Of a stretch of DNA of 64,000 bases, positions 25,612 to 26,822 are shown piece by piece. Origin of the DNA: Prevotella sp. GTDB lineage: Bacteria; Bacteroidota; Bacteroidia; Bacteroidales; Bacteroidaceae. Position 1 is the first letter of the stretch. Every line of letters begins with the position of its first letter. The notes below the pieces were generated by a model. The model was not told where the DNA came from. It made no database searches and saw only the letters and a list, made by a program, of their open reading frames with translations. The DNA lies in contig JAFQQY010000047.1 in assembly GCA_017410365.1 (NCBI GenBank), positions 62,001 to 126,000 of the forward strand. The letters are read 5' to 3'. The position numbers and the translations under genes are program-made.

Positions 25612-26244
25612 TTATTGTTTTTTTAAAAGACAACCATCTGTATCTCCTATAACAATCTCGTTTTCGGAAACCATGAAAATGCTATATGCTTGATAATACG
25701 TTCCGTCTTTATCTGTTATTTCTTTAAGAAGCAGATGTCCTGCATTATTTAGTTTCCATTCAAAAGGATTCGTTCTATGTTTCCCTGAACCGTCAGGATT
25801 GAATATCCAACTTGTTGTGTCGCCCCAATCATCTTTTCCAATCCATGTACCAATTAGTTCGTTTCGAGTTATGTTACCTTCAATTGAAGCTGATGTGAAA
25901 GAGTAAGGAACGGAAAGTAATGGTGAAGAACCAATACTGTCACCGTCTGCATACAGCTTCATAAAGTACGGACCTTTATTCCAATTAAAATCATCAGGGA
26001 ATGATAGTGTTAAGTTGCAAAGACCTCTATCATCAGTCTTTGTATCATAATTTTGCGACCAAATTAAATCTCCATTTCCATGGTCTTTATGGAGCTCTAT
26101 TTGCAATTTGACCTCGCAATTTTGTTTAATTAATCCTGATGTTGGATTTGTTAACATGATGGTATAGTTCATTTTATTTGGAACTTGTGAAATGGCCGTA
26201 ATAAAAAATGATATAAAAAAATACGATAAAACAATTCTTTTCAT
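25612..26244 (-). CDS. Secreted protein with lipocalin-like C-terminal half, function unknown
   Basis: 210 residues with signal peptide MKRIVLSYFFISFFITAISQ. Residues ~22-115 form a beta-rich region (NPTSGLIKQNCEVKLQIELH, LPGDF-like 'SFPDDFNWNKGPYFMKLYAD'). Residues ~125-210 (NELIGTWIGKDDWGDTTSWIF, NPDGSGKHRT, FEWKLNNAGHLLL) resemble the 'GTW...F..DG.G' lipocalin-like proteins of Bacteroidetes. A+T-rich, with no readable Shine-Dalgarno. Its ATG is only about 15 nt downstream of a terminator that closes the structured RNA at 26258-26601, so expression probably depends on read-through or on control of that terminator. Cotranscribed with 25173. Confidence 0.65.
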   Translation of the reverse strand: MKRIVLSYFFISFFITAISQVPNKMNYTIMLTNPTSGLIKQNCEVKLQIELHKDHGNGDLIWSQNYDTKTDDRGLCNLTLSFPDDFNWNKGPYFMKLYADGDSIGSSPLLSVPYSFTSASIEGNITRNELIGTWIGKDDWGDTTSWIFNPDGSGKHRTNPFEWKLNNAGHLLLKEITDKDGTYYQAYSIFMVSENEIVIGDTDGCLLKKQ

Positions 26245-26257
26245 TTATGATGACGAC

Positions 26258-26601
26258 GTAAAAAGGCGCGAAACCATCCGTTACTCGCCTTCCTATTTGG
26301 TTACCGCCAAGTGACCATGTATACTAACAAGTACAGAACAGCTCACGCCTAAACAGCGTGAACCTTCAGTCTACCTGATCTCAGTATACGGAATATTGGC
26401 GGTATTCAATAGGAAGAGAACAAGAGCTAAAAGCTCAATATTTTTAAAAGTACGAATGAGACTACGCCGAGTGTTAATAATAACTTTGGTTAATTAGTCT
26501 CTTGCGGAGCGATGTGCATCATGGCGCAAACAATCTCCTTTATATTAATTCGTTTCTGTCTGTTTCTTGTATTGCGGTTTTAAAGTTACACATTGGTTTG
26601 T
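26258..26601 (-). ncRNA. Candidate structured RNA or leader (~344 nt) with own promoter and terminator
   Basis: Minus-strand transcript predicted from a consensus promoter (26638-26608) to a terminator (arms 26263-26268 and 26286-26291, T-run 26264-26260). In between are: hairpin 26502-26506/26525-26529 with inner gatg/catc; hairpin 26458-26464/26495-26501; and a long rod with paired segments 26292-26297/26408-26413, 26302-26310/26396-26404 (9 bp), 26319-26325/26383-26389 (7 bp), 26328-26333/26372-26377, and apical tcacgc/gcgtga (26343-26361). The fourth helix needs a G-U pair on the minus strand but is an A-C mismatch on plus, supporting minus transcription. No RNase P, tmRNA or SRP signature was recognised. 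It could be a 6S-like RNA or a riboswitch/attenuator for the 26244 gene. Confidence 0.6.
26489..26521 (-). CDS. Possible 10-residue leader peptide (MMHIAPQETN) within the structured RNA
   Basis: ATG ATG ... TAA on the minus strand encodes MMHIAPQETN. AAAGGAG at 26541-26535 lies 13 nt upstream, a Shine-Dalgarno unusually good for this phylum. The stop lies inside the following hairpin (26458-26501), the arrangement of a translational attenuator. No conservation data. Confidence 0.35.
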
Positions 26602-26607
26602 CAAATG

Positions 26608-26638
26608 CAAAAATAATTAAAAGAGTTTATTCTGCAAA
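26608..26638 (-). promoter_or_regulatory. Promoter of the structured RNA
   Basis: Minus strand: TTTG at 26638-26635, 19-bp spacer, TATTTTTG at 26615-26608. Good match to the phylum consensus. Confidence 0.65.
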
Positions 26639-26736
26639 ATAAATCCGCATGAATTTTTGTAGGCACAAGCGACATTGCTTTCCTTAGCCTTGTTTTTTTA
26701 TGAAAATTACGGTTCTCGGAGCAAAAAAAGGTGAAT

Positions 26737-26768
26737 TAGCCAAGAAATGCCAGTTCTTGATGAGGGAT
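26737..26768. repeat. Repeat copy upstream of the AlbA_2 gene
   Basis: 32 bp (tagccaagaaatgccagttc...) matching 28655-28686 with four differences. Together the copies flank the 26968-28449 gene. Confidence 0.8.
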
Positions 26769-26792
26769 TTGTCATTTTTTTTCAATCAACCC

Positions 26793-26822
26793 TTTGATTT
26801 GTACTTAAAAGTTGTATCTTTG
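26793..26822 (+). promoter_or_regulatory. Promoter of the AlbA_2-domain gene
   Basis: TTTG at 26793-26796, 18-bp spacer, TATCTTTG at 26815-26822. The start codon is at 26968, so the 5' leader would be about 140 nt. No hairpin stands out in it. Confidence 0.6.

Follow-up and report, generated by a model that had tools for sequence, protein, structure and literature searches.

A leader RNA of about 344 nt, encoded on the minus strand from about 26601 to 26258, very probably acts as a two-state transcription attenuator of the operon that begins at ATG 26244. Coordinates refer to the window, the whole stretch of 64,000 nt of Prevotella sp. DNA that was analysed. Two mutually exclusive predicted folds, one of them an intrinsic terminator, are conserved at the sequence level, so the leader probably controls the reading of the downstream gene. 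This reading is built on sequence analysis, which provides a family of copies, complementarity for both putative folds, their mutual exclusion and their place before genes. Termination at the long hairpin in the cell, and a signal that selects one fold or the other, are our inferences. The leader RNA family is absent from Rfam 15.

The leader extends from its predicted start to the end of a U-tract (26264-26260, read from the sequence). Upstream lie TTTTG (26639-26635), a spacer of 19 nt and TATTTTTG (26615-26608), which we take to be a Bacteroidota-type promoter on the minus strand (26639-26608). Its position places the transcription start near 26601. A sigma-70 promoter scan did not include it among its predictions. 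The element TAnnTTTG is found no more than 330 nt upstream of helix P1 in 87 of 130 copies (median 228 nt), compared with 240 of 1225 random windows, which agrees with the promoter claimed in a preliminary description of this DNA. The coordinates, strand and anatomy given there for a structured RNA of about 344 nt also hold. The minus strand folds with z = -4.1 and the plus strand with z = -2.7 (0 of 100 shuffles as good on either strand); as this favours minus only mildly, it is gene orientation and the U-tract that settle the strand. Recurring motifs, AAGAAACAGACAG and GCCAATGAAATAG, are seen in the 5' part of the leader (26601-26460) and in the upstream parts of other copies; GCCAATGAAATAG is a two-codon ORF pattern present in 39 of 130 copies.

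A gap of 15 nt separates the U-tract from ATG 26244 in the window copy. The first gene (26244-25612, minus strand, 210 aa) has a signal peptide by a crude rule and the second (25610-25173, minus strand, 145 aa) has one by eye. Neither protein matched a Pfam or NCBIfam family, and a DNA search with the operon in 59 further genomes of the genus gave no match at E <= 0.001.

BLAST of the leader against 60 relatives' genomes gave a match in 12, including its own genome, where two further copies lie. The copy C10 is 89% identical over 416 positions. This match begins at window position 26675, upstream of the promoter, and stops at 26260, where the U-tract ends; the gene that follows C10 is an unrelated one. 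A search of named genomes with a DNA pattern for P1 returned at least 118 stretches, three of which (L047, L058 and L097) were judged by eye to be chance matches. From 157 pattern rows we removed the four rows of these three loci and 16 that were identical from P1 to P1, leaving 137 close copies; L044, L062 and L098 were kept. The U-tract was missed by the search word in 25 of the 157 rows and was set there at 40 nt behind P1.

The first of the two folds, the rod, is made up of s1:s4, s2:s3 and helices P1a, P1, P3 and P5. In order along the minus strand, s1 (CUUGUUCUC, 26424-26416) is followed by the 5' strands of P1a (26415-26408, partner 26297-26290), P1 (ACCGCCAA, 26403-26396) and P3 (26389-26383, partner 26325-26319). 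Next come s2 (GAGAUCAGGUAGA, 26382-26370), the P5 hairpin (26365-26341), s3 (UACUUGUU, 26333-26326), the P1 3' strand (UUGGCGGU, 26310-26303) and s4 (GGCGAGUAA, 26289-26281). A separate hairpin, P0 (GAGC-UUUUA-GCUC, 26436-26424), is 98-99% paired in the 137 copies.

The rod, a long interrupted version of which had been described beforehand, is supported by covariation. The nine best column pairs in the 137 aligned copies all belong to it and lie 20-47 sd above background, where the highest column pair incapable of base pairing reaches 13.3 sd. P1a covaries most strongly of all helices, with z up to 47, and 7 of its 7 pairs have changed on both sides among 48 diverse copies; six column pairs of P3 have z of 10-40. 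At the one free position of P1, 12 of the 137 copies carry G:C in place of C:G, with zero mismatches. Pairing of P1 in close copies is partly a matter of selection, since the P1 pattern was used to collect and filter them; in distant copies P1 has different sequences and its complementarity is kept. RNAalifold closes the rod with s1 (CUUGUU) and s4 (RRYAAG). This closing helix is 96-99% complementary, and as none of its pairs exceeds shuffles it is complementarity alone that speaks for it.

The same alignments were compared with shuffles that keep relatedness, with both structures drawn from the tested sequences themselves. For the 44 pairs of the rod in the 48 diverse copies, 93.8% of 2091 cells are paired, compared with 84.8% after shuffling, and the covariation score is 0.355 compared with 0.201; 0 of 500 shuffles reach either value. 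Pairing drops to 33-44% when the register is slid. By a weaker measure, 18 pairs have changed on both sides (15.2 in shuffles), a number reached by 21 of 500 shuffles.

A further helix, PA, joins UCAUUCG (26459-26453) to 26280-26274, can thereby hold part of t3, and was examined in close copies, where column pair 27:201 has z = 11.9 and is 81% paired, and 22:206 and 25:203 exceed shuffles; by eye, PA was not seen in distant copies. Small hairpins flanking both P1 strands, GAAU/AUUC and GGU/ACC, were considered and set aside: they are 89-99% complementary and nearly invariant, and because they hardly vary, covariation gives no decision on them.

The second fold uses the same strands differently. 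Strands s1 and s2 form a hairpin of 9 bp, and s3:s4 is extended by pairing of the P5 3' strand with t3 (CGGAUGGUUUCGCGCC, 26280-26265), giving a predicted stem of about 22 bp that runs up to the U-tract. Positions 26349-26341 serve both as the 3' half of P5 and as the 5' end of the terminator stem, and the conserved terminator is a long hairpin (26349-26265) built from the 3' half of the rod. The preliminary description had placed a terminator about 15 nt before ATG 26244, where the U-tract ends; the short AAGGC/GCCTT hairpin just before this tract gives way to the long one, as the 5' strand of the short hairpin is missing by eye in many copies. The P1 3' strand (GGCGG) was also tried as the 5' strand of the terminator and rejected: t3 can be read in 11 of the 12 copies whose P1 has swapped to G:C, and all 11 give C-C. 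Likewise, the three successive hairpins first described are part of the picture, to which must be added that s1:s4 can close the rod and that a second, exclusive fold exists.

Covariation is weaker in size for s2:s3 of the rod and for the pairings of the second fold. In the 137 copies, column pairs 68:100 (s1:s2), 109:150 (s2:s3), 150:198 and 154:194 (s3:s4), and 143:205 and 145:203 (terminator stem) stand above every one of 300 shuffles. Their z values are modest, from 1.9 to 6.9 (68:100, 6.9; 109:150, 6.4; 150:198, 4.0), and 68:100, 109:150 and 150:198, as well as 27:201 of PA, lie below the 13.3 of the column pair unable to base-pair. Over the 25 pairs of the terminator fold in the 48 diverse copies, 95.1% of 1195 cells are paired (92.2% in shuffles) and 14 of 25 pairs have changed on both sides (6.8 in shuffles), neither value being reached in 500 shuffles; sliding the fold lowers pairing to 38-49%. 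In 73 of 95 copies the P5 strand is matched better by the t3 of the same copy than, on average, by the t3 strands of other copies (p = 4.6e-12), with 22 of 95 lacking a better fit; the comparison took in 95 of 100 copies, some anchored at the wrong T-run. Another cut of the strands gave 74 of 99. In distant copies the terminator stem is often nearly unbroken (for example L180, L188 and L199). Among the close copies, the 3' half has been lost from L009 and the U-tract from L098; no convincing same-strand gene is seen behind the truncated L009. The covariation check on an alignment that had been called for thus finds covarying helices in both the 137 close and the 48 diverse copies.

A covariance model built from the 48 diverse copies, with rough E-values, was used to find further copies. 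It does not score the terminator pairs as pairs, while the consensus letters there are scored. In the window's own genome it gave seven sense matches, three at 172-200 bits and four at 35-49 bits, and one antisense match. The four weak relatives (G000 C24:16567, C50:31793, C47:29426 and C18:57749; L166-L169) all stand before secreted-looking proteins; three are much alike, and a second subfamily is possible. Model matches were found in 88 of 295 genomes and 58 of 177 genera at the order level (E <= 0.001), in 80 of 199 genomes and 15 of 22 genera at the family level (E <= 1e-6), and in 15 of 345 genomes, own genome included, and 8 of 161 genera at the phylum level (E <= 1e-6). Since the larger runs used stricter filters and scored 6-12 candidates per genome, copy numbers are lower bounds. 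A genus sample had matches in 95 of 249 genomes at E <= 0.01, the weakest of which are short and may be chance.

Among 80 of the P1-pattern stretches that were listed with titles, most are Prevotella, Prevotellaceae, Bacteroidaceae and Bacteroidales MAGs, with one Muribaculaceae MAG and one Alistipes MAG. Isolates among the matches listed are Paraprevotella clara, Leyella stercorea, Xylanibacter caecicola, Palleniella intestinalis and P. muris. Two genuine-looking copies (L050 and L079) come from one MAG titled Bacillota, where mis-binning is likely. A plasmid record of Phocaeicola massiliensis carries a copy (143 bits) directly before a gene for a helix-turn-helix (HTH) protein, identified by eye. 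In this record (L270, 121500-125300) the leader and HTH gene are followed by a small membrane-like protein and a radical-SAM-looking protein (CxxxCxxC), and an ORF similar to the latter also follows the HTH gene at L216. Phage records had no leader match at E <= 0.001, and one match in viral contigs (L162) is a chance repeat by eye. At the neighbouring ABC-F gene, 0 of 15 loci (14 relatives and the own genome) contained the leader. These loci reach 1.5 kb and the leader lies 1.6-2.0 kb away here; because of this short reach and a differing gene order, the empty-site comparison says nothing.

Copies of the leader stand close before genes. Of 133 close copies (those of the 137 distinct ones with at least 300 nt behind, four not being counted), 128 have an ORF of at least 55 aa that starts no more than 90 nt after the U-tract, at a median of 19 nt. 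Among the five without one, L006 and L030 have a secreted ORF further on and L153 an HTH ORF. The crude signal-peptide rule is passed by 111 of the 128 downstream ORFs and by 128 of 374 control ORFs from the same loci (at least 150 aa, non-overlapping); controls cut otherwise gave 87 of 235 (at least 250 aa) and 145 of 492 (at least 150 aa, overlapping frames included). A scan of 107 of the 128 downstream proteins found 47 Pfam families, the commonest being BspA-type LRR_5 with 14 members.

The genes behind distant copies include other kinds. We considered 69 such copies, the best copy of each of 29 genomes and 40 regions picked from the order-level listing, which remained from 40 and 40 model matches after removal of five antisense matches and six of the own genome. 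An HTH protein of about 70 aa follows 31 of the 69 (26 by pattern; L177, L184, L208, L210 and L235 by eye), and in about 18 of these 31 its coding sequence begins right where the U-tract ends. Three of the HTH proteins were scanned without a Pfam family, and two of these three without an NCBIfam family. The HTH family, HIGxxIxxELxxQGRSxxWLA..., is seen at L200, L203, L213, L214, L224, L229 and others, and the own genome has one copy of it with an in-frame TAA (C48). The crude signal-peptide rule is passed by 16 of the 69 genes, among them a membrane acyltransferase (L176). From the remaining first genes, ten that were defence-like or of unknown kind were chosen, and eight match PADLOC restriction-modification models (L197 and L219 match none). 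By Pfam, the gene at L174 encodes an EcoRI-type methylase, and those at L182, L185, L193, L211 and L215 encode DNA methylases or restriction helicases.

How such a leader could work is suggested by the two folds and their energies. In the rod state, with s1:s4, s2:s3, P1a, P1, P3 and P5 formed, t3 would be free, or held by PA in close copies; no terminator would form and RNA polymerase would read into the gene. In the other state, s1:s2 would form, s3:s4 and the P5 3' half with t3 would build the terminator stem of about 22 bp ahead of the U-tract, ending transcription. The leader would thus resemble a trp-leader-like attenuator with a large antiterminator. In the window copy the best fold is the rod with PA (-96.5 kcal/mol), the rod with t3 unpaired has -91.0 and the terminator-constrained fold -84.1 kcal/mol. 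The rod lies below the terminator-side fold in 137 of 137 copies, by a median of 13 kcal/mol. Before s3 is made, the nascent window RNA is predicted to form the s1:s2 hairpin, and when the P5 and P1 5' strands are blocked, 127 of 137 copies adopt the terminator fold, with 10 or more pairs in the stem.

Left to itself, the switch would rest in the 'read' state, as the rod is by calculation far the more stable fold. Read-through by default is expected for this reason and since the rod is complete before t3 is made; a stop would follow when some factor (small molecule, protein or other RNA) keeps s1:s2 paired or masks the 5' strands of the rod. We lean slightly towards this direction, with read-through as the default and a factor-induced stop, and regard it as the least certain step; the switch may also run the opposite way, with a ligand-stabilised rod. 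An attenuator for the gene at 26244 had been put forward as one option beforehand, and covariation, two folds and the nearby gene found behind 128 of 133 close copies now speak for it.

What might set the switch is a narrower question. A common trans-acting factor, protein or RNA, could bind the leaders and join accessory genes in one regulon, a reading that we find plausible, at slightly under even odds. It fits the several leaders per genome before unrelated genes and the HTH gene directly behind the leader in 31 of the 69 distant copies. The factor itself is putative, and the HTH protein is no obligate partner. The HTH family was found in 9 of 40 order-level genomes, own genome included, with a leader match in five of the nine and none in four, and it is these four that argue against an obligate pairing. 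From the protein side, 14 of 16 HTH loci fetched by protein had no RNA match; the weak matches in the other two (E 2e-4 and 5e-4) lie immediately in front of the HTH gene.

It is possible, and we would put it at somewhat under even, that the leader is a true riboswitch, with a small metabolite binding the rod and stabilising read-through, or binding the 5' hairpin and causing a stop. A terminator platform is present, and 31 columns are invariant in 48 sequences, though 16 of them fall inside the P1 collecting pattern. Against this, the genes behind (orphan secreted, HTH, restriction-modification) have no evident common pathway.

That the RNA is a free-standing sRNA with the gene behind it incidental seems improbable to us. 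It has its own promoter and a strong predicted terminator, as a free sRNA should, but in 128 of 133 copies the ORF follows the U-tract closely (median 19 nt), which leaves hardly any space for another promoter, and a two-state design would be superfluous for such an RNA. The specific suggestion of a 6S-type free RNA is not supported, given seven sense matches in the own genome, copies tied to genes and no match to a 6S family at gathering level in the window or in 18 related loci. A mobile palindromic DNA element of MITE or REP type, landing upstream of genes, would account for dispersed copies, several per genome and patchy among relatives, but is very improbable in view of the compensatory changes, the constant orientation and distance to genes, the U-tract, and a match between the window and C10 that spans from upstream of the promoter to the U-tract and no further.

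A broader idea, which we consider speculative and rather unlikely as it stands, is that one widespread class of RNA switch joins many horizontally exchanged Bacteroidales 'arms' (surface and secreted proteins, restriction-modification genes, small HTH regulators) in a common regulon. They would be released or silenced together on one cell signal, for example phage attack or a new host, and promoter and leader would form an exchangeable expression module with changing cargo. To our knowledge, few leader RNAs are known for gut Bacteroidales, and we know of no common control for orphan secreted proteins, BspA-type repeats and restriction-modification genes. For a many-copy on/off leader, finding the signal once would make a hidden accessory-gene regulon readable. 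The four-strand design also makes sharp predictions, testable by swaps of 6-9 bases.

That no known family was recognised at the outset is borne out by searches. Rfam 15 has no family at gathering level in the window, and in 18 related loci none except a tRNA; this holds for described riboswitch classes as well. At E <= 5, the stretch 26150-26800 has four Rfam matches, all below the family cut-off, the best being rliB on the plus strand (E = 0.0025). The literature searched, mostly outside subscription papers, contained no description of this leader RNA, and we call it undescribed with respect to these sources.

The closest parallel in design is the trp-type leader attenuator of enteric bacteria, in which strands 1:2 and 3:4 (the terminator) compete with 2:3 (the antiterminator). 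Four strands, exclusive pairings and a U-tract just before the gene are common to both. They differ in that s1 here can also pair with s4, that a large and elaborate rod is the putative antiterminator, and that the target genes are not biosynthetic. A leader peptide with runs of regulatory codons was not seen by eye in the part of the upstream regions inspected; 39 of 130 copies carry a mini-ORF of the form ATG-A.R-TAR. Orphan riboswitch candidates, cis-acting structured RNAs with a terminator platform, share the complex conserved fold, the exclusive terminator and the leader position, whereas the targets here are accessory genes of unrelated kinds, with several copies per genome. Type III toxin-antitoxin leaders (ToxI-ToxN) also combine promoter, structured RNA, terminator and protein gene, but in the present family tandem repeats were not seen and no common protein family stands behind the RNA.

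FopS of Bacteroides thetaiotaomicron has a single-stranded 5' stretch and one terminator hairpin and acts on susC mRNAs in trans; its deposition in Rfam is reported (PMC11697453). It resembles the leader in belonging to Bacteroidales, in its many paralogues per genome and in its terminator; the leader differs in its long rod and its place in front of genes (PMC11697453). Membership in FopS was rejected on this anatomy, a short single-stranded 5' seed and one terminator hairpin (PMC11697453). Finally, a survey of human microbiomes reports 3161 candidate structured RNAs, 15 of them in the potential 5' UTR of HTH_XRE genes, and fragments of the present family may be among those 3161 candidates (PMC8040213).
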